A stretch of 64,000 nucleotides of DNA from NCBI RefSeq assembly GCF_000003605.2, contig NW_003119425.1, forward strand, positions 1,048,040-1,112,039, written 5' to 3'. The position numbers and the translations under genes are program-made. The notes under the pieces are model-generated. The model was not told where the DNA came from, did no database searches, and worked only from the letters and a program-made list of their open reading frames with translations. Origin of the DNA: Saccoglossus kowalevskii (lineage: Eukaryota; Hemichordata; Enteropneusta; Harrimaniidae). How positions within the stretch are numbered: the first letter of the stretch is position 1; each line of letters opens with the position of its first letter. Of this stretch, positions 1 to 59,500 are shown piece by piece.

Positions 1-515
1 CTATGATTGCCCCTAAAGATTTTTTTTTTATTTTATGACATAATTATTCATTCATATCAAGATAGAATATAAAGCAAATTTATTTTAAAATACACAAAGT
101 AATCAATATTGTCTTTTTAATTAATTTAATAGTAATTTAATTAATATCTAAAGCTACAAGATTGAAATGAACAATGTATACCCGTAATGCCTGTATGACA
201 TAAGCGATGAAATGTACATAGAATATATCAATCATTCACCGATGATGCGTACCAGATGTAAAAGATGAACGGCAAACAAGATGACGGAGAAAGAGAAAAA
301 AACACACACAGAAATGAAACACATAGAACAATATACATGTAGGTGATATATACACAGTGTAATTCATGTCTCGTTACAATGTTAAGTATGTGTGCGAGTG
401 CGTACATGTATCTGTGAAATAAATGAGTGACAATTTAAATGATGTAATTGAATTCAAAGTATGTATTCATTTATCTTAAAAACGATTTACAGCGCAATTT
501 TATAACAGCTCGAAA

Positions 516-823
516 ATTAATCATACCAGCTGACAGATAAAGGTCAGATATGTGTAACTGACCATAATATTAAGTGGTTAATTATGATTACACATTTCCG
601 TTCCTAGCTGTTCAACATAAATCTAGAATTTTTCAATAGATATTCTAGTTGGACATCGGGTGAAGAGCATTAATCATACCAGCTGACAGATAAAGGTCAG
701 ATATGTGTAACTGACCATAATATTAAGTGGTTAATTATGATTACACATTTCCGTTCCTAGCTGTTCAACATAAATCTAGAATTTTTCAATAGATATTCTA
801 GTTGGACATCGGGTGAAGAGCAT
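516..823. repeat. 153-bp tandem duplication
   Basis: Two head-to-tail copies of a 153-bp unit. Both begin ATTAATCATACCAGCTGAC and end GGTGAAGAGCAT, and I see no difference between them by eye. The identity suggests a very recent duplication or an assembly duplicate. Each copy contains a small palindromic patch around TCTAGAATT and ATATTCTAG. Confidence 0.85.
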
Positions 824-926
824 CAACTATCTATTTGATTTCCAGATTAGGATTTAATTACTTGGCCTTTAAACGATTATGGTTTTTACATCGTGAATGA
901 TGGAAACAGATTCTATAAAACTGATA

Positions 927-1138
927 TACTGTAAAATACTTTATTTTAGCTGGAAATAATTTTCGCTGAAAAGTCTTTTTAGGTGTTTTGCATGGAATTA
1001 ATTTTCACTGATTTTTGACAAGTGGAATGTAAAATATAGGAAAAAAGGTATATTCGCTGGATTTTATTTTCACTGAATCTTTCCTTCAGCAAAAATAGCA
1101 AAAATTAATTCCAAGCAAAAATAAAGTATTTTATAGTA
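927..1138. mobile_element. Palindromic MITE, TACTGTAAAATAC family, copy A
   Basis: The ends are inverted repeats: TACTGTAAAATACTTTATTT on the left and AATAAAGTATTTTATAGTA on the right. Inner parts (TTTTCGCTG, TTCACTGA and their complements) are also inverted, so the whole 212 bp can fold back on itself. Related copies lie at 18,000, 39,223, 44,137 and 47,889, with fragments at 54,975. A TA at each end would fit a Tc1/mariner-type target site, but no transposase for the family is present. Confidence 0.75.
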
Positions 1139-1230
1139 CATTGCGCATCAACATATATGCTGTGCAACTGCCGTATAAATCACGTTCTCTATCAACATAA
1201 CTATACATAATTACACAGTAAAGAAGACAA

Positions 1231-1238
1231 GTTTTATT
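1231..1238 (-). terminator. AATAAA overlapping the stop codon
   Basis: On the minus strand the last codons read GAA TAA AAC, so the hexamer AATAAA includes the stop codon. It matches the animal polyadenylation signal, but many other AATAAA motifs occur in this AT-rich DNA and it may not be used. Confidence 0.3.
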
Positions 1239-4200
1239 CACTCTGGTTCATTGTTAATCGGCCTAAAAATGAACTTGACATAGTGATATTGTGATTCACA
1301 TCAATGTATTTCTCACTCACCTCCGCTACTTTCATATCTAATAACTCTTCTTGTTTTTGTACTTTGGTATTAAGCGCCATCACCCTGGCATCCAAATCTG
1401 CTAAACCACGAAGTCCACTCTGGTTCTGGTCATCTAACAGAGACTTCATTTTGTCTTGTGCCTGACAACATGCAAGAAGGGACAGCAGATTCAGTAATGA
1501 CTGAATTCCTCAGTTTCAATGCACAAAATATATACCATATATACTCGTCTGATTTAGTGCCCAGGGTACTCAAAAATAGCTTAGGTGATCACCCTCCCCT
1601 TTTTAAAATTATCCAAATGACAATTTTTGCTCACCATGTGCTAGATTAGAAAGAATATTAAGTCTTTTAGGGGAAAATAAAATGCAAAATGAGTTGCCTT
1701 GTCATTGATTACCACAACACTTTCACAATGAAAAAAACAGGAACTCCCAATACTACCGTAAGCAATTTTCCGACATGATATTTTTATGTACAATTTTACC
1801 TGCAACAACGCTTTCTGACCTGACAGGTCAAGTCTGTTATTAACCAATCAAAATGATGTGTTGTACTGACGCAATGTTCTGAGCATTTCTGAATATCGAT
1901 GATGGCATTTTTCACCATGCAATGCGAAACTGAATTGTTGATGTTAAAATACGATCTAAAAAAGCTAAAAAATCAAAAAGCCATTCACTCACCGAATACG
2001 ACACCTCATTCACCTGTTCATTTATCCCACCAATTGCTTGCTGTAAAGTTGCTATGGCGACACCAAGTTTTTCTTGTACATCTTCTATTTTGTCTTCTAT
2101 GTGTCTGTCTTGTAATTGTCTTTAAGACAAACAAATATTGATCAATTTAGATTAAATTTAAAAAAACACGATAAAACATTGGTTCTGAGGAAATGAAAGT
2201 CTTGTTCATTTTGGCACTATCCACAATATAAGTGAAGCTTGTGTAATAAAATCATCTCTGCCTCTCAAATAAACAGAAATAAAAGAGAATGAAGAAAAAA
2301 CAAAATTGACACCATTACCTTGATTTGATTTCTGCTTTCATTACTTGTTCAAGTTGCTTTTTCGTCTCAGATTGTTGTTTTTCTAACATTTCAATAGCGT
2401 CATTTACCTTAATGAGTCCGTCCGTCTGTTTGTGGCTTGTCAACTGTGGAGAAAAAATGAGCGAAACCAAACTAAATAGATTGTCAGCAAATTAAATTAT
2501 GCATATGACAGAATCTTTTTTTTTTACTAAAGTCAACTTTTACAAAATAAATATTTTTTTCAAATAATTTGATCATTACCTGTAGCCATTATGAAATTAA
2601 GTCCATTTGGTCCAAAATACATAAAAATACGCAAAATATTGCACCAAAATGAAATACAAAATGTTGGTGTTCAAAGATTAACACATTGCCTACTGAAAGC
2701 CTCGACAGCCTCTATTTGAATAGTAAATAACAGTGTCGGCAGATGATGCAATACTTGAGAAATTTTCATCAATTCATTGTCCAGTCAAATTGCTCATTAT
2801 TACTGCATCACAGGCAAAATTGTACAGCAGAAGTTTTCTTCCAAGCCAGAGATTGAGCTGATATTTTACTATCTGAAGTAATTGAGGCAAGATGTTTCTG
2901 AATTATAAAATATTTTGTTTTATTGGTGAAACAATGGCTTCATAAAAGCTAGGGGCTTCAAAGCAGCATGGTAGATTTTGATGGTATAGGACGTACCAAT
3001 ACATGATATGAAACACTGGCAATAAAACAAATACCAGTGTCTCATTATCGTTTACTCATTTCCACAGTATTTAGTCGTAATTAGTTTCAGTTGCAAAATC
3101 TTTTGAATTTATCTGTTGTTTTACTTATCTGATCCAATCAAATGTATGTATTATTACCTTGTGACCTTCCCGTACATTAAGGACTTCATCTTCTGTTAAT
3201 TTTTGCAACGCAGACCATCGCTTCTCATTTTCTTCCCTCATAGCCTGCTCGTGGGTGATTCTGGCAGACTGCTCAGCGTGTAGCATCTGAATATGAAAGT
3301 TATGTCAAACAATAATTTTCAGATATATCAGTAAATTTTTCAGCTAAAAGGGAATAATGACAACTGTCTAAACATGTTACCAACTGAATTCATTCAGACA
3401 ATAGATACGCCACTCCCATTCTAACCAGCTTGTGCAATGTGTAATTTATGTATGTGCACCACAGCAGTATCAGAACTAGTTTGGGAAAATACAATTCTAG
3501 CTAACAATTTGGATAGATATGATACCTTTTCTACATTGGCAAATTTTTGTTGCGCTTCTTCTCGAAGCTTTATTTCTTTCTGTAAAATTTTCTTGCTGAC
3601 TTCTTCCGCGATTTCCGCAATTTTTCCTTGCATTTTAACTCGTTCGTTGTCTGTCGCATGTTCTCTTTCTCGCTGGATTTGATCCAGTGCGTGCATGGCC
3701 TCATCTCGTTTCCGTGCCTGTTCGTGCACCTGGGCTTGCATGTCATTCATCCTGTTGAAAGAAGGAATATATGGTCACGGTTTAGATGGACCAACTGCTT
3801 TTCAGAGATGGTATAGCACCCTCAAGAGTGGTATGTGGAAAGTTTACTTTACCTACAGGGGGCGCTCTACAGATAAGACCATTATAGTTAGGTAGGGCTC
3901 ATAGGAATACAATTTTTGTTTTATTCAATTCAGGACACATTTCAGCAATTGTAGATGAAATGCAAGACGTGGCTCTGAATTCGCCCATTGATGATGATCA
4001 ACTTTCTTACCTCATATGGATTTGATTCTCGTTTTGCCTCCGCTCAGCTTCTTCTGATGTCATTCTATTCCGAACATCTAGTAAAGCATCTCGAACTTCT
4101 CCTAACCTAGAATACAGATGAACCAGACAGATATATGTAAATACTACCTACACTTGTTTATATACAACACACGTAAATAAAATTGTAAATAAAAATGTCC

Positions 4201-7200
4201 TTTTGTGTGACCCTTTCCTTTTAATTATTATCACTGACGTAATTTTAATCTTTGATGTGCGATATTAAATACTCAATTCGCAAAATAATGACCAGCCCAT
4301 GAAATTAGACAAGTTTAATATTTTTGCTGGGTATCCAAACTGACATCAATAACATGAGAAATTACAAAATCAAATCTACGTCACACAGCTACCGAAACAA
4401 AGTAAACATGCTTTAATAAAAGCAGAGGATCTAGGATGCTTGTAAGTTGACCAATCATGAATCTTGTCTCATCTGTCATTGAAACACTCTTGTTTTGATG
4501 GCGTAGAAGTGAGGAGAAAGTTGTACTGCAGTGTTTTACCACCAAGGACACCAGGAATCAGTTATTTTTTACACACATTTGTATTTCTACTGAGTGGGCA
4601 TACAAGCTTAAAAGTCACCAAGTCAGTGAATATTGCAGTTTTGTGTGTTTTTGATATGTATAATGTGTTGCACCCTACTGAAAGTACGGTGTACTGTCAG
4701 TACATCATTTCCATCATGGACTAGTACAATACATGAACAATCTTATTTTTGTTGTTACAACTAATCTATCAGTAGTAGTGAAAGGTAATCATGCACTATT
4801 TCAGTGTATTTCAATTGAATATGCAGTTTTGCTAAGAACAAAAAAGAAACACTTGAACTCATTCAACGAACAATATTTTCAACTGAAAAATAATTATAAG
4901 TCAACTCGGTCACTTTCTAAAAAAATACAACCAACAAAATTTTCCCCAAATCTTAGAAGAAACTTTGATCAATACCTGCAGCCAATGAAAAATTGGTTCC
5001 AAATTTGTTCCAAAATAAACAAAGAAATTTTAGAAAAATACAGAAAAATGTGCAAAATGAACCAATTTTGGCGGGAAAGATGGTAGCATCCAAAGTGTTA
5101 AGCATTTTATCTGACATGTAACTATTGTTGTTCATTACGCTTTAATACACTGGTAGCTCAAGACATTGTCTGCTGACAAATATTTTCCCATTCATTTTAG
5201 CTATCTGCGGAGCATTAAAGTGACATTCTATTTCAGTATTTGAGACATAAACGAAGAAATATGTACATTTTCACAGACAAACACAAGTCATTGCAATGTA
5301 AGAGGCAGAGGTTGTTGCCGTCATGTGTGCATACGATTACATGCATTGTACATTACCCGGTACATGAAATCTGAACACATTCAAATGTACATGATTATGT
5401 ACCTTAATAGTTTGGCATTGCTTAAAACATTCACTGAAATACTAGTATGCAGAATGATAAAATACGAAAAAAATAGCACAGATTTGAATCTATCACTAGA
5501 CTATCACTATATACCAAGACGTTTATCAAAAATTTACCAAAACTATAAGCCAATCGACTACAGGGATATTAGTTACACTATATTATACAGCATTGTCACA
5601 TTACGCTACCTGGCATCAATTTGTGTTCGTATCATGTTAGTAGATTGCTCAGTAGTTGACTGATTCTCGTGGTGTTTGCGTTGATAGTCCAGCTACATCA
5701 GAATTAGTGCGAACAGGAAGTAAGCATGCATGCATGGGAGAAAGACGATGTGATGATTGTATGTACATGCATGACAGTGGTTGCATGCAGCTGGTTGTCG
5801 GGATCACTTTCTAGTAGATCTCGCACAAGGCACTACAATCTTTTGAAAAGATTTCACTTTAAAGTATGTACTAAATTGTCAAGTTCAGGCACCATCCACA
5901 AAATAGATCCATTTATAATTTGCTTTTTTCCTATTATGGTCAATTTTTTTTAAAAAAGTTTGAAGTAATTTTGTCTGTTTCATTCAAAATTATGACTGAA
6001 TTCTGTGAAAATTACAGAAACTGTGAACAAAATTTACCCAAATTTGTGTGGAAAAGAAATTGGCGCTCAAGGGATTAATGCATGACCATGATGAAATTTA
6101 AAATATTACCAGAATGTCTGAACGAACGACAGGATTGAGATACATCTAGAAAGTGAACACAGATCACAATTTGCTGACAGATGGAAGCTCTACTGAACAC
6201 AACATATGTCAGCACAGTTTCTATGGTTAACTACAATGTATGGCATCCATAGGACAACACATTCTATAGGTTTCTATGGATTCCACACTATACATTCTAT
6301 AGGAATCTATGGTGCCCACGTAACTATTCTATAGTTATCCATGGATTCCATAAGAATACATGCTATAGTATTCTATGACATCCATGTGACAACATATTCT
6401 ATAGTTATCCATGGATTCCATAAGAATACATGCTATAGTATTCTATGACATCCATGTGACAACATATTCTATAGTTATCCATGGATTCCATAAGAATACA
6501 TGCTGTAGTATTCTATGACATCCATGTGACAACATATTCTATAGTTATCCATGGATTCCATAAGAATACATGCTATAGTATTCTATGACATCCATGTGAC
6601 AACATATTCTATAGTTATCTATGTATCCATGCGACAAAGCATTCCATAGTTATGTATTTCCCACCAATACCTTACCTACTACTCATAAGAAGTCGGAGTT
6701 GCGAGACTTCCTGCTCAGTGAAGTTGCGATCATCAACATGTTTTCTAGCCTCTACAATCTGTTGTTTATAAAAACAGTTACCACGGACACCAACATGAAA
6801 GCGAGAACACAAACATATAAAATACAAACATTACATGATAAACGACCAGAAAAACACAAAACATAAAATTATGTGCACTGTGCCAGTCATTGTTTTTTTT
6901 TTTGACCGATAAAATGTTGTAGTGTTTTCTACGAATATCAAACTAAGAGAGTTGATACAGTTTTACAGAAATGTCGACCATAAGATTTTTATTTCAATTC
7001 AGTATTTTTTATCAAATACACATACTGTTAAAGTTGTCCTCTTAAAAAAATTATTGGTGCTATTATGTAAAATATTTGATGGACTGCAGGAAAAAAAATT
7101 GTCAGGATTTTGATGTGTTTTGAATTATTATTAATACGACCCTGAGTAATTAGGAACAAAAGTGTTTTTTTGATGAAATCTACTAGTATATGCAAAGAAA

Positions 7201-10200
7201 ATTCAAACACACAAATGGGAATCCAAAATGATCACCAGCATTATTATGTATTTCCCACAATTCATGCAAATTCAATTATAACATTTCACATGATTCAAAT
7301 AAAAAGTTGTGATTCGCTATCAAGATGTCTTTTTTTGCAGCATCCTCTATGCGCGAAGTTACATCCAATCACAGTCCAGTCATTTGCGTAATGGTGACAT
7401 CTATTTGTACTTGCTGCAATTAGCCATTTTGAGTTTAAATGTGTTTTTTTTTATATTAAATTAACCGTAAACCACATTGATGGGTTAGCCTAAAACAATA
7501 GAAGGATATGATGTTATATATATATATATTATAATTAAAACCTGGTCAATATTAGCTGGTTAAGATATTGCGCATTGTGCCCTTCCTTAATGGCCTCTGT
7601 GCGGTCAGCCGGTACATTTATTAAATTAATCCATTATGGTCGACAAAACTGTAGCAAGTCAAATGAAGGTGAAATAATAATGTGCGGTAAATGTTTCTAA
7701 ACCATATTCAGTGATTTTCCACACTCAGAAAAAAGCAAACATACATATGACTGATGCACAGTGCTTCTCACCTACACACCCCTATTTCCCAGTGGTATGG
7801 TCAAATTTTTATCATTTTTTTTTTTTTTATTTCTATCTCAACTCAACACTTGGAAATAGGAGGGCGAGAAAATTAAGAATTAACAATTAGGAAGCGAGGT
7901 TGAGAGCATGATAGTACCAGAACACACGATTCAGATTCTTACCCGCTAAATATTTCCAACAATAGATTGCATTGCACAGAAATTAAACCAGGAGGTAAGA
8001 GTTGAGTTAAAAATTGCATACAATAGCGCCCTCACAGTCCACAATGTGAACTGAATAGCGCCCCCATAGTCCATGTTGCTTTGTTGCTTGTTATTTTTGG
8101 CGAATCAAATCATCATAAACTGCTTAAAGCTGAATGCTAGTAACACAATATTTTTCTAAAACAAATTTACATGACTGTCTCCATGACTATTATTTTTGCA
8201 TGAATTTTTATTTTCAACATTGCACCAAAATATCACCACCTCAATCATTTTTATGTTGGTATACAAAAGACATACGTGTAAAATAAAAGTGACGCAAAAC
8301 TTACAGCCTGCCTATTGTCTTCTTCAAGCCTTTTGGAGCGCTCTTTCAACTCGTGCATAATAGAATTAAACTCCATTTGTTGTGTATCTACTTTGCTTTT
8401 TAAAGTTCGTACTTCGTCAACCATCGTGGTCGTAGCACGTTCTAGTTGGTCGCGCATTCGGTTGGCTTCGTCTAAATCATTCCGAAGATCGGCAATTCTG
8501 TAATATAAAAGCGATTACTGAACTCAATACAATTCAAAATAGACTTCAGTTTGTTGTTTCAATTTTTTTTTCCAATATAGACTAGACCGGAAAAGTAAAA
8601 GTAAAAAAAAAATATTTTGACCTGAAAACTATTCTTTATAAAGCTTCATCTAATCAGAGGATATCAAACAATTTTGTTCAGAAATGAATAATAATACTGA
8701 ATGATGGTGATTCATGTCTTTTTATTTAATATGCAAATTGTGACCCTTTAACTCATAAGTTATGCACATTTGATGACCCCATAACTTATTAGTTATAGAA
8801 ATTCCATTGATCAAAATATACTTATAATGGCAATGAGTAGTAATACTCAGTCAATACATCAAACATTACAAAATCCATACACATAATAATTGGCCAAAAG
8901 TGCCATTCATTTACTTAATGTGTAGGATTTACGGCAAAGGTTACAATATATTTAAAGATTACACTATGTAATGTATTTTATTGTGTGTAATTTAATGAAT
9001 CGCATCAAAGGAGCATTTACTTCCACAATGTATTGAAAGCACAGTTTTATTGCACAATAACATGTTTGAGTCAATGAACTGTGAATCAACAGCTGATTCT
9101 CACGATGCAGTGGCTGTGAGTTTGCATGCCGCGAATGTGAATTACCAATCAGCTGATTTTTGTCGTGCCCTGAATGTGAATTAACAATCAGCTGATTCTT
9201 GTCGTGCCCTGAATGTGAATTAACAGTCAGCTGATTCTTGTCGTGCCCTGAATGTGAATTAACAATCAGCTGATTCTTGTCATGCCCTGAATGTGAATTA
9301 ACAATCAGCTGATTCTTGTCGTGCCCTGAATGTGAATTAACAGTCAGCTGATTCTTGTCGTGCCCTGAATGTGAATTAACAGTCAGCTGATTCTTGTCAT
9401 GCCCTGAATGTGATTTTACAATCAGTTGATTCTTATTGTGGGGAATGTGGATTAACAATCAAATTATTTTTGTTGTGCCCAAAATGTGAATTTACAATCT
9501 GCTGATTTTTGTCGTGCCCAGAATGTGGATTAACAATCAGCTAATTCTTGTTGTGCCCTGAATGTGAATTAACAATCAGCTGATTCTTATTGTGCCCTGA
9601 ATGTGAATTAACAATAAAATTATTTTTGTTGTGCCCAAAATGTGAATTTACAATCTGCTGATTTTTGTCGTGCTCAGAATGTGGATTAACAATCAGCTAA
9701 TTCCTGTTGTGCCCTGAATGTGAATTAACAATCAGCTGATTCTTATTGTGCCCTGAATGTGAATTAACAATCAAATTATTTTTGTTGTGCCCAAAATGTG
9801 AATTTACAATCTGCTGATTTTTGTCGTGCTCAGAATGTGGATTAACAATCAGCTAATTCCTGTTGTGCCCTGAATGTGGATTAACAATCAAGCTGATTCT
9901 TGTCATGCCCTGAATGTGAATTAACAATCAGCTGATTCTTATTGTGCCCTGAATGTGAATTTACAATCAGCTGATTTTTGTCATGCCCAAAATGTGAACT
10001 AGCAAATAAAACAACTTACTTTGCATACTGTTGGTCTCTCCTAGAGAGTATTTCTTGTTGACTGCCTAATACTGCTTGCTCTACTTGTTTCGTGTGATTA
10101 ACTAACGCTCCTACGGCCGCTCTCTCATCCTGCACTTTCTCCTCTGCTCGTTTAAGTCTTGCTCCCAACTGACCAATGAGGTCATTGCTGGAACGTAAAT

Positions 10201-38600: not shown

Positions 38601-41600
38601 TTACAGCTTACAAAAATGCCTCTTTAATTCAAATGAAATGAAACTTTTCATATTTTACGTTCCTGAGATATTTGTCATTATTTTTCAAAATATAAATATA
38701 CTTTTTTATAAAAATATACATACATACATTGATTACATTGATTTGATTTAATTTTCTTATATATTCCATTTATTGTTTTGTGCAGAATACTGTTATTAAT
38801 GACATACCATTAGCAGCCACGTGGTCTGAAAAAGGGAGTGTCCATATCTGGGATCTAAAGCAACACGTTGATGCGTTGGAAGACAGCGCATTATTGGCTC
38901 GAATCACTAAACATGATAATACAAAACCATTGTTTACATTCAGTGGCCACCAGACTGAAGGATTCGCTGTGGACTGGTCACCGACTGTTGTTGGTAGGTG
39001 TTTATTAGATGTTGGTTCAGACCATAATCATGCGGGAACGAAATTTCAAGAATGGTTACCATGCCCTGTGTAGTTCAAATTCTTTCGATAAGCTTAATAA
39101 CAAATTGTGGCGTACCTGAAACTTGATATGCAATAATATACCCACAATGCCACAGAATTATACTGTAGGTGCATCATGGTAAAACATGTACCGGTAGGTG
39201 TTTTGTAATGCTGAGTCGCACATACTGTAATATACTTTATTTTAGCTGGCATTAATTTTGGGTGTTTTTTATGGAATTTGTTTTCACTGATTTTTTACCA
39301 GTTGAATGTGAAATAGGGTATATTCGCTGGATTTTATTTTCACTGAGTGGTTTCTTCAACGAAAATAGCGCAAATTAATTCCAAGTGAAAATTAAAGTAT
39401 TTTACAGTAATAGTGTTATCATGAAAATGACTTGAATTGATAGCCATTTTGGCAGACATGATACAATTCTTGCATGCAACTCATAGATGGTTCACAAAAT
39501 CATTTCACTGGAAATGTAATATCCATTAACATTTTCCGCTACTTATTATTAAATTCATATCACAATTTGTCATAACATGTCATACACCACAGATAAAATC
39601 ATTACAATTAACATAAATTTGTTATCTTTATTAGGTAAACTTGCCACCGGTGATTGTAAAAAGAATATCCATATATGGAACCCGACTGACGACGGAAGCT
39701 GGCATGTTGATCAACGACCATATATAGCGCATACTGACTCAGTGGAAGATATACAGTGGTCTCCCAATGAAAATACAGTAAGTATTTGTTGATTATTTTG
39801 TAGTAAATATAACTTTTGCATTGAACGTGGCTATTGTAGCTTTAATTAATTTGACATTTTTGACTCGTGTGTGTGTGTGCGTTTGATGCAAGTCATTCGT
39901 CATGTCTGTGTATTTGGATGTGTGTATCAAATCTTGAGAATCACTGGGTGGATTGGTGCATTCGTCATGTCTGTGTATTTGGATGTGTGTATCAAATCTT
40001 GAGAATCACTGGGTGGATTGGTGCATTCGTCATGTCTGTGTATTTGGATGTGTGTATCAAATCTTGAGAATCACTGGGTGGATTGGTGCATTCGTCATGT
40101 CTGTGTATTTGGATGTGTGTATCAAATCTTGAGAATCACTGGGTGGATTGGTGCATTCGTCATGTCTGTGTATTTGGATGTGTGTATCAAATCTTGAGAA
40201 TCACTGGGTGGATTGGTGTTCAATTCAATACACAGATTCTTTATGATGAAATCCAGATTCCTTTTTGGTACAAAACAATGCATATTAATTAGGTAATTTG
40301 CATACACAATTTTAGCATGTTCTTTGTATTTTTTTGCAACACTTTGCACAAATGCATTGAAACTTGAGCTCTGAGAGCATTCATGGAGCTTTAAAATCGA
40401 TGCATTGAGACTGTGATTTGTCATATTTGATATTCTGAATTTGCATACATTGCAGGCCTTGTCTTTTACAAATAGGTTCAGAATAAGAAAATAGCGCTCC
40501 AAAAAGCTCCGGGCGAGTCATGGGGGTGATTTCAATGTGTTGAGAATGAGAATGTGTAATACTACATAAAAAAATGAAGTGAATCGCTTTCCCTTGCCTT
40601 AAAAAGAAATTGTTATTGCTGGGAAAAATGGGGATTTTAAAATTGCTGTGTCACTCAGTAATTCAGCACAGAAGCGAATCCATCCACATTCAAACTCAAA
40701 AACAAATGTATTAGTGCGAAGCGAATACAAACAGTCAATCATCAAATAGACAGCTGAAATGATCACCAGCATTCAGACGCACAGAAAAACATTCTACGTT
40801 TCCTACAATTTAAACTATAAAATATCTTGCATAATAAGACAACAATAAAGCTCAGCAATTGTTCTAAGAAGGCATCTTTAGAGTCAGTGTAAGATTGTGT
40901 TTGATTGGCTACCCAAATCTGATACCCAACGTCCAATCATAAAGCAGCTTGTTTGTTGATGGGTTTATTCGTATCAAATTTTATCTTTATTTTTATTCAC
41001 AGGTGTTTGCATCTTGCTCAGTGGATAAAACTATACGTGTGTGGGACTGCCGAGCGGCACCGAATAAAGCTTGTATGCTGACAACCACAGCCCATGATAG
41101 TGATGTCAATGTCATCAGCTGGAATCGGAAAGAACCATTCATCCTGTCTGGCGGGGATGATGGCTTGATCAAAGTGTGGGACCTAAGACAATTCCAGGTT
41201 AGTATATTGATAGTAGATATAGTTATCAACATCCATAGGAGTTTTGTCAGATTGCTGCTTTTAAATTATTTTAACAGTATTTCAAACCCAAAATCCTTTG
41301 CACAACGGTCTGATTTTGTTATTCACTACTACATTGAGACTTTCATTTCTTACTTACAGAAAGGAAAACCGGTGGCCAAATTTAAACACCACACTGCACC
41401 AATCACATCTGTTGAGTGGCACCATGCAGACAGCACAGTGTTTGCAGCATCGGGAGCTGACAACCAAATGACGCTGTGGGATTTGGCAGTCGAGAAGGAC
41501 GAGGAAACCACAACATCGGGTGGAGGAAATTCCTCACAGGTGGATGTGCCACCGCAGTTATTGTTTATTCACCAGGGACAAATGGACATAAAGGAACTTC

Positions 41601-41680
41601 ACTGGCACCAACAGTTACCGGGGGTGATTATAAGTACGGCTCAGGACGGTTTTAATATATTTCGGACTATCAGTGTGTAG
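35663..41680 (+). CDS. GRWD1: Glutamate-rich WD repeat protein, histone chaperone
   Basis: Exons: 35663-35861, 37770-38050, 38786-38993, 39635-39777, 41003-41197, 41360-41680. Phases agree and the CDS is 1,347 nt, giving 448 residues; I recall the human protein as 446. The start AAAATGGCG has good context, and the first residues ([16 protein letters not shown]) are acidic as in the family. Residues 67-115 carry the conserved N-terminal CAF1C/H4-binding-type region ([20 protein letters not shown]), 120-141 form a nearly pure acidic run, and from about 150 to the end there are WD repeats (VHIWDL, IHIWNP, IRVWDC, IKVWDL, MTLWDL). The family (yeast Rrb1) binds histones and ribosomal protein L3 and works in nuclear ribosome assembly and replication licensing. 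It ends [11 protein letters not shown]. Introns carry transposon relics and a 65-bp minisatellite. Confidence 0.97.
36060..37310. mobile_element. Repeat element with GTCCCCG hairpin end and 150-bp internal repeats
   Basis: It starts with a hairpin, GTCCCCGTTCGGA and TCCGAAAACGGGGAC around CGCAG, then a GTGCGTGC run at 36,118-36,150. About six diverged copies of a 150-bp unit follow; the first two start GATCTGATTCAAGAT at 36,250 and 36,400, and each has a palindrome-like GGCGGCCATTTT. This layout resembles non-autonomous elements common in marine invertebrates. It fills most of GRWD1 intron 1. Open frames in it are by-products. Confidence 0.7.
39223..39409. mobile_element. Palindromic MITE, TACTGTAAAATAC family, copy C
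   Basis: It starts TACTGTAATATACTTTATTT and ends AAAGTATTTTACAGTA, with the same inverted interior (TTCGCTGGATTTTATTTTCA) as the other copies. It lies in GRWD1 intron 3. Confidence 0.75.
39894..40219. repeat. 65-bp minisatellite, five copies
   Basis: Five head-to-tail copies of a 65-bp unit starting CATTCGTCATGTCTGTGTAT at 39894, 39959, 40024, 40089 and 40154. They appear identical by eye. The array sits in GRWD1 intron 4 and produces open frames with repeating CVFGCVYQ-like words that I regard as spurious. Confidence 0.95.
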
Positions 41681-50564: not shown

Positions 50565-53500
50565 ATGACGTACATGAAGATAGCCAAGAAATCGGACCGG
50601 ATTCTGCACCTTTCCAGAGAGCCTGGCATCCGAGCATGGAGTATGTTTGTTGGTAAGTTCGAAATATAACGACTGTCTACTTATAATCGTGTCAAAATAA
50701 TTAAGGGGTGCATTATTGGGGTTTAAAATGTATTTAAAATCTCGCGAGGCTTCTTGAAAGTATGTTGAATAATACAGAGCTTAGCAGTACTAGTTTTACA
50801 CTCTTTTCACTCTGTCCGTGGTAGTCACGTGGTTTATGGTCCATTATAAAAACAAACAACTTAAAATAACATTTAAAAACTCAAGATGATGGTTGAAAAC
50901 CATGAACCAATTACAGTAACAGTAAATGTAACCTCACTATTTTGAAATGATCTGAGTTATCCAATCAGCAATCAGTTCTGTGCATAGAGGAGGNNNNNNN
51001 NNNNNNNNNNNNNNNNNNNNNNNNNNNNNNNNNNNNNNNNNNNCATGACCAATTACAGTAACAGTAAATGTAACCTCACTATTTTGAAATGATCTGAGTT
51101 ATCCAATCAGCAATCAGTTCTGTGCATAGAGGAGGGTGGTACAAAAGTGCATTATAACAATGAATCACAATCTCTTGAATTTAGATCTACATTTATATAC
51201 TATTGTTGAATGAATAAATATTTTTTTTTATATTTACAAAAAATTAGTTAACAACATTCAGAAAGAGTTTCTTTTCTATTCACAACTCTCATGAATACAC
51301 CATGTTTCATACACTGTTTAATCCAGATTACTCGGTTGGTTTGTAATGACCTCATTGTTTAGAATTCACTTAGGGATTGGTCAGTTACTTCGGCCTAGGG
51401 GGGGTCGACAGATTCCATTTTGCCAGCTTAAAATTTCAGTTGACCCACCCCCTATCAAATAAAAAAAAATGGGTGACCCACCCCATCATTATATTTTAAA
51501 ACATACTGACACCCCCCCAAAAAAAACCAAAAAACAAACAAAACAAAAACAAAACAAAAACAAACAACTACAACAAAGAAACATTAACAGTTCGGGTTCT
51601 GACATGATTACAAAATTTATCATGGTTTGCCATAATTTTGACATTTAATAGACCTTACCATATTGTAAGATAGTTTAAAAATATGATCTTACCCTTCTCC
51701 CAGACCTAGTTGTGTGATATGTACTCCCGTGACTCTCTTCATCACTTTTAACTTCTGAATCATCACTATCACTTTCACTACTGCTGTCTTCTTGGTTGCT
51801 TGAATCAGCCTCTGAACCACTATTGCTTTCACTGTTCCTCACCTCATACCTACTTGCACGGTGCATAGCCTGTCGCCACATACCTGCCTTCCTTCCTGAT
51901 CTAGTAATAAATGTATTACTGCTATCTTCAGTCTCAGAATCAGAAATATCAGTATGTCCTATCTCATTGACAACAATGTCCTCCTCTTCAGAATCTGTCT
52001 CATCTATAGAGTCAAGTTCCTCACTTTCAGAAAAACTTTCAAGATGTTGACTTATTTGTTTTTTCTTCCTGTCATCTATTTCTGCTTTCCGTAGAACATC
52101 ACATGTAATTGCCCGCAGTTTATCTTCTTTTTTCCCATGCTTTGTCAATTTATTATAATCCAAATACTTATTTAATTCAGAGATGGTCAGTGTTTTTAAC
52201 CTTCCTTTCATGATTATATCTAACCAGTCATAATCCTTATAATCTCTCTCCTGTTTCTTCTGTTTTTGTTTTTGTCGATCTTTGCTTCTAATCTGCTTCA
52301 ATTTCTTTAAATTATCCAGGTGCTTTAAATAATTAACTACATGGATGTCTCCCACTGCAAATTCTTTTCCAAATGATGTAATCACATCAGTGTCACCCAC
52401 TGTGAGCTCACCATTTTGAAAGCGTCTAGTGATATTGACTCTTGGTTGCCAGTCGTCAGGTTGGCGAGGGTTTCCAGTATCATCACAATTTGGTGTCTGG
52501 AATACATCCATATAATGAGATGTCTTCTGTGGGTCAGGAATTGGCTGTGGTATTCTTTTAATTATAGGACCAGTGAAAGGATGTGTTTCACAATATTCAC
52601 ATAAGTTGCCATGTTCTAAACATCCAGTTTTCAAATATTCAATATACAGTTCACCAACTTTAAAATGGCTTTCTATAAAATTAAGAATCCTGCCAATGTA
52701 GGTTGACCCAGGAACAGACTGCTTAGCAGCTGCACTACTACATTTAGTGTATTCATGAATTAGGTGTCTATTGTCAAAAAAGAACATGTCCTTAACCTCT
52801 TCTGAGATATGTGCTTTGATGTAATCAGAAAGGACTGGTGCACCATCAATACGTCGAGCTACTTCGTCAACTACATCCCATGCCTTTTGTGCCATTCTCT
52901 TCTTCTTGTATTCTTCATAGTTTTCAACACTCATTTCATCAATATCATTTTGGGTCATCCCCTCAAATCTTTTATGCTTTTCCCAAATAATAGTGCTACC
53001 ATCGACAACTGCATCACCTATGGCTGAATTTGTACGCTCTGCTTCTCCCTGCCCACTATCACCCCTGGAACGATGACAACGAACTCTGTAATCCGAATTG
53101 TGAATCATGGCCAATTCTGCTTCTCTGAACCTCACTTCTAGATTTGACACACCTACACCAGGTCCAGCGTCAGTGAGATCTGCCCATCTGGGTTTGACTG
53201 AAGGAAGACACATATCATCAAATATCACAGTGGCGGAAGTGCACTCTTTCTTCAGCTCATTACATGTTGCCAGAATCTCTTCACATTGGATATCTGGTCC
53301 TGTCAACTGTGTTAGTAGTGAAGTATTGCATGTGACTATTCTCTGTATGGCTGGAACAATACGAGAGGAAAATAACTTCATTTCATCAACTCTGCAATTA
53401 CATGTCTCTAATTCTGTCAACGCAGCTTTGATTCGGCTCTGCAAGTGTTTTCTCCGTTCTAACTCATATTCCCTGTGTCTACAGTTTCTGTCCCCTGTAA

Positions 53501-56500
53501 CTTTTCCTACATCTTTATCTTCTGTCATCAGCATGTAAAGGGCAAGGTCATCTCTTATTTGTGCACACAGTCCTCTATACGGTGAGCTATACAGTGGTTC
53601 TTTCTCTTGCATTACTTCAAAAATGTCTGGATGTTTGTGTCGTAATTTGTGTGTTTCTGAAGCCCAAACTGTTCCTGATAAACCAATCAATGCCTTTGGC
53701 TTTACAAATACAAAGTGGTTATCAGTGTCGGTGACTAAATGCTCTTCACCATTTTCTATTACTGGTTTCTTAGTGAATATTCTATGTGCTGATGGTGTTA
53801 TATAAACATCCTTTTCTGGCCAATCATATTTCGGCAACTTCCTTGCCTGGTGAAAATCAGACAGTGTGGCAATCTTTTGTTTCCTGGTTTTCGCAAAACC
53901 TTCTGATGTGCCAGGACGTAGATAAGCTTTATCGTCAATACTTCTCATGAAGCAGTATTTCAATGTCTCGTTGTCACCTGAAAAAAATGTACGTTTTATG
54001 TTTTTCACATGGGCTCGTTGATAATGTGTATTTTCATTTGAAACATCTTCTGCTTTAGGTGGTTTCTTGAAACAGAATAGACCCCTTCCTCTATGCTGCC
54101 TTGCCTGGATTGAACATTTATTGCGAGGTATTGCTAGATTGTACACTGTTGTTGAAGATTTGATGAGCTTCTTGTTCTTTTGCAAAAGTCTATAATTTGC
54201 AATATTGAGAAGATCACCTTTCTTGACACGTCTGTTAGTGTACATCACAGTGTCGTGACGACGGCCATGATAGGTGCTTTTATCTTTGATACATTTTGCA
54301 ATGAAATCCTCATCATCACTATCCAGCATTGGTTTGCGACCTTGTGGTACTAAAAAGCATTTTCTCTTCAGTCTTTCTGTCTCAATGAGAAAGTCTGCTT
54401 TTCTTTTTACTGCTTTATTCTGTCTTACCTTGTCATGCTTTGTTTCTGGTTTAATACGAACTTCAGTTTCTTTTAATTGTTCACATAAAATGTCTATCTT
54501 ATTACGGACATTGTCAAGTTGAACCTCTGTTCATGTGTTCTTCTTTTTTTCCAGCAGATTTTCTAATGTTTCTATCTGTTTTGAAGTTTCAGTCTTCTTG
54601 GCTTCCAGGTGCAGTTTTATCATGTCTGTTGCAGCTATTGTAGCATTTTTCACTTCTGTAAACTCTGTCAGTATCTCTTGCAACATTGTCAGAATCAATT
54701 CCTATGTTTATTATTTCAGATCTTGACAGTGTAGAACTCAGAAGGACCCTTGCACAAATCTTATCCCATTCAGTATCCATAGTTGCAATAATGTTCTGAA
54801 TATTTGTCTTAGATATATCAAATCTGGTAGGTTTTCTTGAAACACATGACATCACTACATCCAGAAATTTAGCATAGTCAAAATACTGAGAGTTTAGCAC
54901 GACAAAACGCTTCCCTGTGGATATAGATAAACAACAGATTGTAATGAACTTATGATTTCTTTGTTTGTATATAATATTGTAAATACTTTATTTGTACTAG
55001 GATTTAATTTTTGCTATTTGCTATTTTCGCTGAAGGTATTTTTCCACTAAAACAAATTTCAGTGAAAATGCTGTTTTTCCTATACTTTACATTGAGTCCT
55101 GATACAACTCAGTGCAAATTTATAGATCCACACATAATGCCTGAATACTGTTTTATACACAGTACTGTGCTCATATATTTAAAACATGTCACAAAACCAA
55201 AACATCAATTTCATTTGGTAAATGTAAATGTCATTTTTAAATTTAAATGTCATTTTTAAATCAATAATTTATTATTAGACAACAAGTTAAAATTATTATA
55301 AAAATATAGATTATAGAATTTCCAATTTAGTTTTACCAATACAAGGTCTAGTAAAAAAACAAAATGTGATTATTACCAAGTCTATGTAAGAAAAATACTC
55401 CCAGGTGAATTGTTTTCAATGTATACAAAATTAAATTACAAATAACTCACCTATAGATTTCATTGTGACGACATTTACACATAATCCATGGGTAGGATGT
55501 AGAAGATTCACTTTAAATTGGTCTACATGTACTGTATTTGTGTGGTGCCTGCTGTACAGTTCAAACGCCTCAGTCATGGTCATATACCCCCTCATTTGAC
55601 CAGCAGGAGAATCAATTTCAGTAGACAGTCTGTCATCAAGCATTAGATGATCAAGGATATCAATAAGGCCATTTAAATTTTGAAGTGTAGATTCTAAACA
55701 TCGCTGCTGTGCCAACGTTTTCAAACTTTGTAGACGAATTTCATGAAAAGCAATTTACCAGCTGCCTCAAAATAACACCAAAAAAATATTTATATAATAA
55801 TATTTTCACAGTATTACTATTTATTTCTTTTTTATTATTATTATTACTTATGTATTTTATTGTTCCTTATATCCTTATTGTATTCTAATCTAGATCCCAG
55901 AAGGGATACGACATCAATAAAGGTTGTTATTATTACATATGATTGTCACTTGGATTGGTACAGGGTTGAAGTGATGGCGATATAGAAACCTCATTGTACT
56001 CTACCTTTGCACTTCTTACAGCTTGCCTGCTTGTACTACACACCGATCTTCCAGTGATGTCCTTTGTATCTTTTCTCATACTGATTTGTGAATCATGCTT
56101 CAAATTTCCCACTGATAAACCCTGACCCCTGACCTGATCAGGACTACCCTATTCAAGATCGGGGTGTCAGTATTATATTATAAGCTCGGCATGAAAATAA
56201 TTAAATTTTGAATACATAATTATTTGTTTGCCTGTAATTTATCTACTTTTAAAAATAATTTGCGTTTTTTGTGGCAAAAAAGTAAGAAACACAGTAATTT
56301 CCAAGTACATGACCTACTTTACCTATGCACATAATGCAGTGGCCCAGCATTGGAGAACATAAAAAACAAACAAACCCATGGCATTTCATTTCTTCTGCTA
56401 GCTAGGTGTCTGCTAGCTTTCAAGCGATAAGTACTTGTATTTCAAATGAGCCTGGTCATGGCCAGTCCAAAGCAAGATTTTGTTGGTTTATGAATGAAAT

Positions 56501-59500
56501 CGGACGTGAATATGTGGATACCTTTCTCAGCAAAGATTATTTTGACTTTATTGCTGATCTTGACGACGATGACATCAGTCACCTTGGGTTGCAGCAAATG
56601 CCTGGAGTGGTCAAAACATTGCGACTGAGAACACGGCAATTAAAAGAACGTCTTCAGAAGCAAAAAATTGTGCCAGCTCCAAAAAAATTGAGACAAACTG
56701 GTAAGTAAGTTTGCACATCTCCCCAATTTTGTGTATACTGTAACTAATCTAAATCTAACTATGTTCGTAATACAGTGTAATTTATCATACTACCAGGTAG
56801 TACCTTTGCAAATGGGCACAAGACTCTTTAATGGGGGTTATTTTCGTTCAACGTAATTGCAATATTTTTTTGTTCGTACAACGTAAATTGACAAAATAAA
56901 TTCCGTAATTGTGTAATCACAGGCTAGACGTACAACGTAATCAATCAAATATTTTTTTCGTACACTGTAAAAATGTGCAATTTTTCTCGGTACGTACAAG
57001 AATTTTCTAGGTTTTCTTTCTTAATCTTTTTTAGCCAGTACAATTCACAGATCATATTTATTTTGATAAATTTCAAATGCGTACATTTATAAAACTGCTA
57101 TATTTTAATTATTGCTTGTTTGGTAAAATTGATTGTGTAAATTTTAATTGTATTTAAAATAGTAGAATATAATATATTCTGTTCTGTTTATCCAGTAATG
57201 TAATGATTGGTCTAAAAAAAAATTGGGTAGTTATCTTTTTGCGTAAAACCAGTAATTGTAATGATAAACTAATTGTCATCTTGGTTTTATAATTTGCCTA
57301 CAGTGTTGCCTTGGGGATGTACATCAAAACCAGTACCAGATGAGGCATGGAAACAAACCAAGTGGTGGTATTCGTCACCAAAACAGGACAGAACAATGTA
57401 TTATAATTCTATACTGCCAAATATGTTTTCAGCAGCACATCCATTTTTGCAAGATAATTTTCATGATTATCTACTAAAAGAAAGAGCTGATCGCTACCAA
57501 CGTAAGCAAAAAATTGAATGTTGGGAAAAAAGCTTCACCTTTAACATGTCTGGTAATGAAGCAGCATATGGAAAGTTTCTAACCTTACCAGTGCCCCCCA
57601 AACCAGAGCACATTCCCCAGTGCGAAAAGGGATCAGTATCTTGAAGTCAATGATGACAGAAGTCAATGATGAGCGTAATACACTGAAAAAGGTCTACCAA
57701 AATATTTATGACACCAGTGGGAAAAATCTGAAGGTATGGGCAAAGGAACAGAACCAATATACTGTTGATATGCTTGACACTACAAACAAAGTCCAAGAGA
57801 AGATGCAGTCTTCATTAACAAGGCTGGAGTCAACATTGACACGCATGAAATCCATACTTGTTGGTTTAATAGGTACCAGGAGTCAGAGTAATGCAAGCAG
57901 ACGAAAGAAGGAAGGGAAGCATAAAGCAAAAAACCGACTACAGAAAAGGCTGCAGGAAGGAGGGAAATCTATGCTGCTAAAGATAGTAAATAAAAGCAAA
58001 GCTGTGGAGTACTCACTTGATAAACGCCCTTATAAGATAGGAAAAGAAGATTTGAATTTAGGAGGTTTGAACTCTTTGAAAACTAATTTTGATTTAAAAT
58101 ATCTTTCATATCTTATAGACCAGGAATGCTTTACACCCGAAGCACAATCTGTGCTGATGAAAACAAAGGAAACTTTGATTTTTGCTTAAATTTGTGTTGG
58201 ATTTTGATATTTTACAGAGCAAAATATGCCCATTTAAAAGTTAAAAAAAAAAACTATTTATTTATTTTTCATTATTTATTTTAATTTAAATATCAACATT
58301 TTCACAAATTTAATTTTTTTTGATTTGCTGAACAAAAACTGTTACAGCTCTTTTTACTAATTGCTGTGTTGTCTTTTCGTCTCCTGTTATAATTGTCTTT
58401 TTTGATGAAAAAGTGATATTTTTGACTTCTTGTTAAAAACTGCAAGTCTGATTACTTTGATACTATACATATAGAGGTAGACCTCTCTTAGATTTGTTAA
58501 ATTTGTGATGATATCTTCAATTATCTAATGTTAATGAATATTTTTGTTGAAAACTGTAAGTCTGATTGCATTGATACTATACATATTGTTCATTTTCTAA
58601 TGATATCTTCAGTTCTTTAATTGAAATGTGCATTGCTAACAGCAGAGCTATCTCAGCCGACAGGCTGCTTGTTTATCTTTTGTTCTGAAATAAATTTTTA
58701 AAAATATATGCATAAGCTTGTGTGTGAATTCTGGAAAACATGGTGACCCCCCCTATTCATGATATCAAAAACAGGGTGACCCCCCCTATCCGCAAAACAA
58801 AAACAGGATAACCCCCCTACTGATCCACCGACTCCCTCTAGATCGAAGTAACTGACCAATCCCTTAGATTCATAAATACATATTTACTTCATTGTTGATT
58901 TTTTCACTTATAGGTGTTATATCAATAGGTATTGGTGCTGTATATTTCAGTTTGGATAACATAGTATGGACATCTGTGTGCATTCTGGGTAGTTTTATAA
59001 TTGCTATGTCCTGCCTGGATGATTGGGAGGTAAGAAATAATACTGTGCAGTAGACCAGTTTTGGATTTCCTTATAGCTTAATAGTCACCATGCATGTTGA
59101 TTCACTCTTAGTCAGCAGAAATATGTTCAGGTAAACCCCTACTCATAAATTTGAATACCCAGGCTTCTATGACAGAAATATTATGCCATATTTTAAATTG
59201 TAGGCTGATGACATAAGCTGAAAAAATTATATATTGTTAATTATGTGCTACTTTTTCTTGACCTGAATTATTTTTAAAAGTGTCAAAAAGGATTTTTTTC
59301 TTTAACATTGTGTTCTGTTTAATAGTTCTAAGAATTGCATTTTTTTTTTGGAAAAAATTAGAACAAGTTTCTCAAATTACATCACTTTAACACACACAAA
59401 ATAATGCTATTTCATGGTGCCATTGGACAATAGCTCCATGATTTTAGATAATAAACCAATGAACATTGTCATGTGATTTATGACCAATGTTCTCAATACA

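Follow-up and report, generated by a model that had tools for sequence, protein, structure and literature searches.

Results

Structure of the locus

The stretch of the Saccoglossus kowalevskii genome analysed here (contig NW_003119425.1, positions 1,048,040 to 1,112,039; 64,000 nucleotides, termed the window, from whose first letter all window positions are counted) contains a 7.5 kb element with perfect inverted ends and a TTA on either side. Two genes diverge between these ends: a large minus-strand gene for a putative transposase and a plus-strand gene for a putative partner protein with a SAM domain (Table 1). An original prediction, made from the letters of the window without database searches, had described the 20-bp ends and the flanking TTA, and its coordinates and letters proved correct. 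The two ends also pair beyond the 20 bp, at 32 of 39 positions counted inward from the tip. The exon model of both genes rests on frames and standard splice signals. The 884-residue reading of the large protein, P0001, starts at an internal ATG inside the 951-codon frame, and the gene seems to extend further upstream through the three minus-strand pieces listed above position 54530.

Table 1. Features of the element, with positions in the window
Feature	Position	Strand	Remarks
Element	51373..58863		7491 bp; 20-bp perfect inverted ends, TTA either side
Left target-site duplication, TTA	51370..51372	none	window letters, copy flanks, L045 empty site
Left terminal inverted repeat, GGGATTGGTCAGTTACTTCG	51373..51392	+	20 bp; exact 20-mer 68 times in genome
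Main open frame, putative transposase	51675..54530	-	951 codons stop to stop
Proposed catalytic Glu, E431, GEAERTN	53037..53039	-	codon verified; role proposed
Proposed second catalytic Asp, D387, LTDAGPGVG	53169..53171	-	codon verified; role proposed
Proposed first catalytic Asp, D132 of P0001, SIDDKAYLRPGT	53934..53936	-	codon verified; role proposed
Coiled-coil-like upstream piece, same frame as main open frame	54531..54701	-	coiled-coil-like by eye; severed by TGA 54531-54533
Upstream exon	54589..54914	-	acceptor at 54914 within frame 54589-54987; L056, a diverged copy, has a similar piece
First recognised exon of minus gene	55451..55754	-	donor GTGAGT after 55451; weak C2717 match, E 0.065
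SAM-domain exon of partner gene	56406..56700	+	donor GTAAGT at 56701
Second exon of partner gene, LPWGCTSKPVPDEAWKQ...	57304..57644	+	relatives in C4 and C2717
Coiled-coil-like and basic C-terminal part of partner gene	57560..58189	+	other frame than preceding exon
Right terminal inverted repeat	58844..58863	-	20 bp; exact reverse complement of GGGATTGGTCAGTTACTTCG
Right target-site duplication, TTA	58864..58866	none	window letters

Copies, target duplication and empty site

The copies show that the element transposed as a DNA transposon, duplicating a TWA target in the manner of PIF/Harbinger. In the genome searched (572 Mb, 4830 contigs) the exact 20-mer of the ends occurred 68 times, 35 forward and 33 reverse, while the reversed 20-mer used as a control was absent from both strands. 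The flanking 3 bp were identical in 15 of the 17 copies with both ends readable (TTA in nine, TAA in six), the exceptions being L007 (TTA/TTG) and C50 (TAA/TTA). These 17 are the window copy and two sets of 11 and five, with identical flanks in 10 and four respectively; C376 was read by eye, and the count covers copies with both ends inside the retrieved stretch. Because of the 68 exact copies against none for the control, together with the TWA duplications, the 20-mer ends are not a product of chance. An unoccupied paralogous site for copy L045 was found at C2949:571960-572054, 89% identical and carrying a single TTA with a one-base gap adjacent to it. For the other nine of the 10 joined-flank queries no empty site was present among the 40 matches scored out of 1179 candidates, comparison within the retrieved sequences alone gave none either, and at copy L042 the matched repeat stops short of the left flank, so that no empty site was counted. 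The identical flanks and the L045 site therefore fix the target duplication as TWA; the TTA originally proposed is borne out and widened, through the kind of empty-site alignment that the prediction had named as its check.

Eleven convergent pairs of the 20-mer lie less than 8 kb apart when neighbouring matches are paired by eye. The pair in the window is the only one above 1.3 kb, and the remaining 10 span just 0.5-1.2 kb. The left 1 kb of the element has 94 candidate places in the genome, 40 of which were scored. In the short derivatives examined, at most some 270 bp remain from the left end, together with the final third of the SAM gene and the right end, a structure that shows the copies of about 0.5-1.5 kb to be internal-deletion derivatives, such as are also known in PIF/Harbinger, and they would have been moved in trans. 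The window copy is the fullest found. One short copy, L048, adjoins a few tandem units like GGATAAACACCTAA.

The large protein

The DDE reading of the large protein is putative and rests on conserved acidic motifs. The motifs quoted in the original prediction are present letter for letter, but none of the libraries searched backed the label 'DDE', nor did they support the SAP-like region that had also been suggested. D387 and E431 are 43 residues apart, and the motifs are arranged in a way reminiscent of integrase-type enzymes, with their D, D-N-G and G-x-x-E-R. The acidic residues D132/D133 (SIDDKAY) are kept in the diverged copy L056, which shows DDKAY; the Asp at D387 is kept in L055 and L056, and E431 in L055 and L012, this position being unreadable in L056, where the frame is lost. 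One 44-residue stretch, SN.E.RFREAE.A.IHNS.Y..RCHRSRGDS.QGEAE.TNSAIG, has 35 positions identical in three lineages.

The view that this putative transposase fits no named superfamily agrees with the searches: the large protein matched no Pfam family at E up to 10 and nothing in NCBIfam, its PDB matches all lay at E 0.25 or above, and PHROGs returned a single noise match. The Harbinger profile PF13359 (DDE_Tnp_4), used as a positive control, gave 62 matches in the same genome, and its silence on the large protein is informative for that reason. Nor did Pfam match the protein to Zator or another Repbase superfamily, although Pfam, to our knowledge, covers the Repbase superfamilies incompletely. 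No relative was detected by tblastn in viral contigs (92 and 113 pattern stretches) or in prokaryote genomes (236 pattern stretches). Against five Harbinger sequences, hhalign profile-profile comparison gave a score of 10.9, compared with a shuffled mean of 14.5, and the best ungapped windows of these sequences were scattered, none of the five falling on the D387 register. The profiles on our own side held three or four rows, and because they are this thin the profile-profile negatives, here and with the family described next, are not strong.

The genome also encodes an unnamed protein family that looks DDE-enzyme-like, with DNK, DGG and NPVER motifs. It comprises L067 (988-2169 in C1942, with a 394-codon frame open), L069, L072 and L068; Pfam matched none of L067, L069 and L068 (L072 was not in the scan), and no long terminal repeats were recognised in 9 kb around L067. 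The family resembles the large protein in having 43 residues from the D of DAG/DGG to the E of N-P-x-E-R and differs from it in the distance between the first two Asp residues, 105 in L067 compared with 255. When three of its sequences were placed jointly in ungapped register, D387-E431 ranked first of 823 offsets, with 144 of 5000 column shuffles equal to it anywhere, and with all four sequences 140 of 5000 shuffles were as good. Taken singly, L072 was equalled by 82 of 5000 and L069 by 650, while L067 ranked fifth (4917) and L068 54th (5000). An upstream block of L067 was equalled in 4 of 3000 shuffles, but had been chosen as the best window, and shuffling of the whole protein gave 7 of 60. 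In pairwise local comparisons of the block from the second Asp to the Glu with L067, L069 and L068 (six comparisons), 138 to 1054 of 2000 shuffles were as good, as were 405 of 2000 for the first-Asp region and 429 of 500 for the whole region. The register comparison gave no support at the first-Asp block and the profile-profile comparison with the family was negative. As a control, five Harbinger sequences gave window scores of 13-25 at scattered places, compared with 18 for L069 at the register. Kinship with this family is a lead only, the more so because the family was picked for its looks.

The partner protein

Pfam gave no match to the SAM exon of the window, for which the best PDB match was the SAM chain of Caskin-1 (0.0095). 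A relative, L064, in the relic at C4:107913-109300, which holds pieces of all three parts of the partner gene, is 34% identical and was matched by Pfam SAM_1 at 2.8e-4 (21.6 bits; curated cut-off 23) and SAM_2 at 5.6e-4 (20.4 bits; cut-off 20.5), and by 22 PDB chains at E up to 1, nearly all of them SAM domains, the best at 1.6e-6. Through this diverged relative we take the predicted SAM domain as confirmed; the original assignment thus stands by way of L064, the domain being visible to Pfam and PDB there and not to Pfam in the window exon. Neither the window gene nor L064 had a Myb/SANT/MADF match in Pfam. Across the genome at E up to 0.001 the SAM exon matched only itself and the C4 relic (three candidates scored). 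The last part of the gene gave 77 matches among 93 scored candidates; its last third persists in many of the short copies (e.g. L040-L053), several of which have it in an open frame of about 96 codons.

Association and constraint of the two genes

The transposase gave 34 matches in the genome from 44 candidates, those outside the window being fragments of which the longest covers residues 352-637. Copy C2039 (L054), which is shortened and has 74-88% identity in its separate pieces, matches element positions 61 to 7478 of 7491 with internal gaps and carries parts of both genes in the layout of the window. In C1007 (L056) partner pieces lie upstream of the transposase, on the opposite strand and in order (E 6e-4 for the third part and 0.033 for the second exon in a 7-kb search), and in C2717 partner exon 2 (3.4e-6) faces a weak first transposase exon (0.065, with a background of at least 0.34). 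By these matches both divergent genes belong to the element, the pairing being clear in C2039 and suggestive in C1007 and C2717. The two-gene transposon originally proposed is borne out by the ends, the duplications and C2039.

Substitution patterns speak for protein-level constraint on either gene during the active life of the family. The codon pairs were taken from tblastn segments; where segments overlapped, the choice favoured matching residues, and this choice lowers the proportion of non-synonymous differences (pN). Between the window transposase and the diverged L055 (369 codons) and L056 (581 codons), pN was 0.33-0.36 and the proportion of synonymous differences (pS) 0.78-0.83, which is synonymous saturation. 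Against C2039 the ratio of non-synonymous to synonymous divergence (dN/dS) was 0.24 for partner exon 2 (99 codons) and 0.48 for its third part (207 codons). For the partner C-terminus pN/pS was 0.17 between the window and the majority codon of 16 short copies (92 codons) and 0.57, not 1, among the short copies themselves, nine of which have a stop at the same residue.

Surroundings of the element

Just outside the element, at 50906-51135, identical copies of an 88-bp stretch flank a run of N, which probably reflects spurious duplication where the assembly has a gap. Elsewhere in the window there is a WD-repeat reading at 40943-41680, which we take to resemble GRWD1 and which fits an animal host, and a minus-strand open frame at 8964-9458 is a tandem DNA repeat with units of about NSHSGHDKNQLTV.

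Discussion

We propose that the element represents a cut-and-paste DNA transposon family in which the large minus-strand gene encodes the transposase and the plus-strand gene encodes a SAM protein in the place of a Myb-like protein, a reading that we consider probable. The large protein is most likely the transposase because it is the only candidate enzyme in the element and is conserved. It would bind the 20-bp ends, cut at both and join them to a TWA target, where staggered cuts would leave the 3-bp duplication that is observed. The partner, with its predicted N-terminal SAM domain, coiled-coil-like stretch and basic tail, would fill the place of the Myb-like protein of PIF/Harbinger, either by carrying the transposase into the nucleus or by keeping the two ends together. 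Since SAM domains self-associate and the protein has the same place in the two-gene plan, it may cluster enzyme and ends, relying on self-association through SAM where a Myb-type protein would read DNA. PIF/Harbinger requires both of its proteins; in a zebrafish element the Myb-like protein binds to the transposase, recognises a subterminal motif and is required for the transposase to be located in the nucleus (PMC9710019).

Several observations weigh against this proposal. Fold or profile evidence for the large protein as a DDE enzyme was absent from Pfam, NCBIfam, PDB and the hhalign comparisons. The dN/dS of the transposase against the close copy C2039 was only 0.49 over 339 codons, with 0.69 (167 codons) and 1.52 (72 codons) for the degraded L003 and L004, and the settling of overlaps towards matches counts in the same direction. 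Partner and transposase occur together in only one close and two diverged copies, the diverged ones being weak, and in the C4 relic the partner stands without any transposase that could be recognised across the 12 kb read. The second locus foreseen in the original prediction, carrying both genes, exists in C2039, but the two genes lie between the same ends there only in part, because this best-matched copy is without the outermost 60 bp on the left and its right tip is worn. Both genes of the window also seem to be broken: the minus gene has the in-frame TGA at 54531-54533 and a frame change near 54700, and the SAM gene changes frame somewhere from about 57560 to 57644 and shows no clear ATG before the SAM domain. 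With lesions apparently in both genes, the window copy is probably inactive now.

The family may be placed either as a far-drifted relative of Harbinger or as an unnamed superfamily. On the first placement it would be a PIF/Harbinger (PHIS) member that has drifted far, with a larger transposase past profile recognition and the Myb-like partner swapped for a SAM protein, a possibility that we take seriously while giving it less than even weight. The TWA duplication, ends that start with G and two genes, which the available sections of PMC4482050 give for PIF/Harbinger and its sister groups, speak for it, as does the spacing of D387 and E431, which is close to the 45 residues that can be counted in L057, a Harbinger sequence from this genome. 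Against this, DDE_Tnp_4 does not match the large protein even at an E of 10, despite the 62 matches of this profile in the genome, the protein's profile-profile score lies below the shuffled mean (on thin profiles), none of the five best Harbinger windows falls on the D387 register, and the element is 7.5 kb long compared with an average of about 4.1 kb (PMC4482050, same sections). The original prediction had cited PIF/Harbinger as an analogy; the likeness in the two-gene plan holds, and the TWA signature means that the element may be more than an analogue, a drifted relative. The opposite placement would make the family an unnamed superfamily of its own among eukaryotic DNA transposons, one that gained TWA targeting independently of PIF/Harbinger, with a DDE enzyme of about 1000 residues and an obligatory SAM partner that builds the transposition complex by SAM polymerisation; this we advance tentatively and hold to be rather unlikely.

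A different explanation for the TWA target, given that the same genome contains Harbinger transposase matches, is that Harbinger-like ends are moved by canonical Harbinger enzymes and that both genes are passengers with some other function for the element. That 10 of the 11 convergent end pairs span only 0.5-1.2 kb would fit such trans-mobilisation, but the searched frames of the element contain no Harbinger gene (no search was made for a Harbinger element with these ends), and both genes appear constrained at the protein level and leave traces together in diverged relics, so that we judge this improbable. SAM is a common host domain, and the two genes could in principle be host genes between chance repeats or captured pieces of host genes; with 68 exact ends in the genome, duplications at 15 of 17 copies, an empty site and a SAM exon that matches only itself and the C4 relic at the threshold and candidate number given above, we attach hardly any weight to this.

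In full-text literature searches none of the papers listed, some of them judged by title, pointed to a SAM protein as the partner in a DNA transposon; Repbase, subscription journals and preprint servers lay outside these searches, and the element may already be catalogued in one of them. Among known systems, the Kolobok transposons of animals encode a DDD/E enzyme, in some lineages along with accessory genes, but they make a 4-bp TTAA duplication (PMC9587614) in contrast to the 3-bp TWA found here. ISL2EU differs in its 2-bp AT duplication within A|AT|T, which the flanks of the element do not fit, and the second genes of PHIS elements are described as encoding Myb/SANT or YqaJ proteins or proteins with no known motif (PMC4482050). 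The same source, as far as available, gives PIF/Harbinger a TWA duplication, two genes with a Myb/SANT partner and ends that usually start with A or G, and gives other target duplications for its sister groups. In Repbase the class of a non-autonomous element follows largely from its terminal sequence and its target duplication (PMC4455052), and gene-less copies of the present family may for that reason be filed under Harbinger by their ends.

The closest comparison is thus with PIF/Harbinger itself, with which the element shares the 3-bp TWA duplication, short ends starting with G and two protein genes, and from which it differs in lacking a DDE_Tnp_4 match, in a SAM rather than Myb/SANT/MADF partner, in its length of about 7.5 kb and in genes with predicted introns. 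As judged from sequence, it follows the PIF/Harbinger target rule and has neither the recognisable enzyme nor the partner of that group, and we do not file it as a member. A SAM partner, if real, would mean that a polymerising domain for protein-protein contacts can serve to build transposition complexes. Should the enzyme be related to that of Harbinger, the family shows how far the fold can drift and how a partner can be exchanged, and if it is unrelated, the same TWA target choice arose twice.

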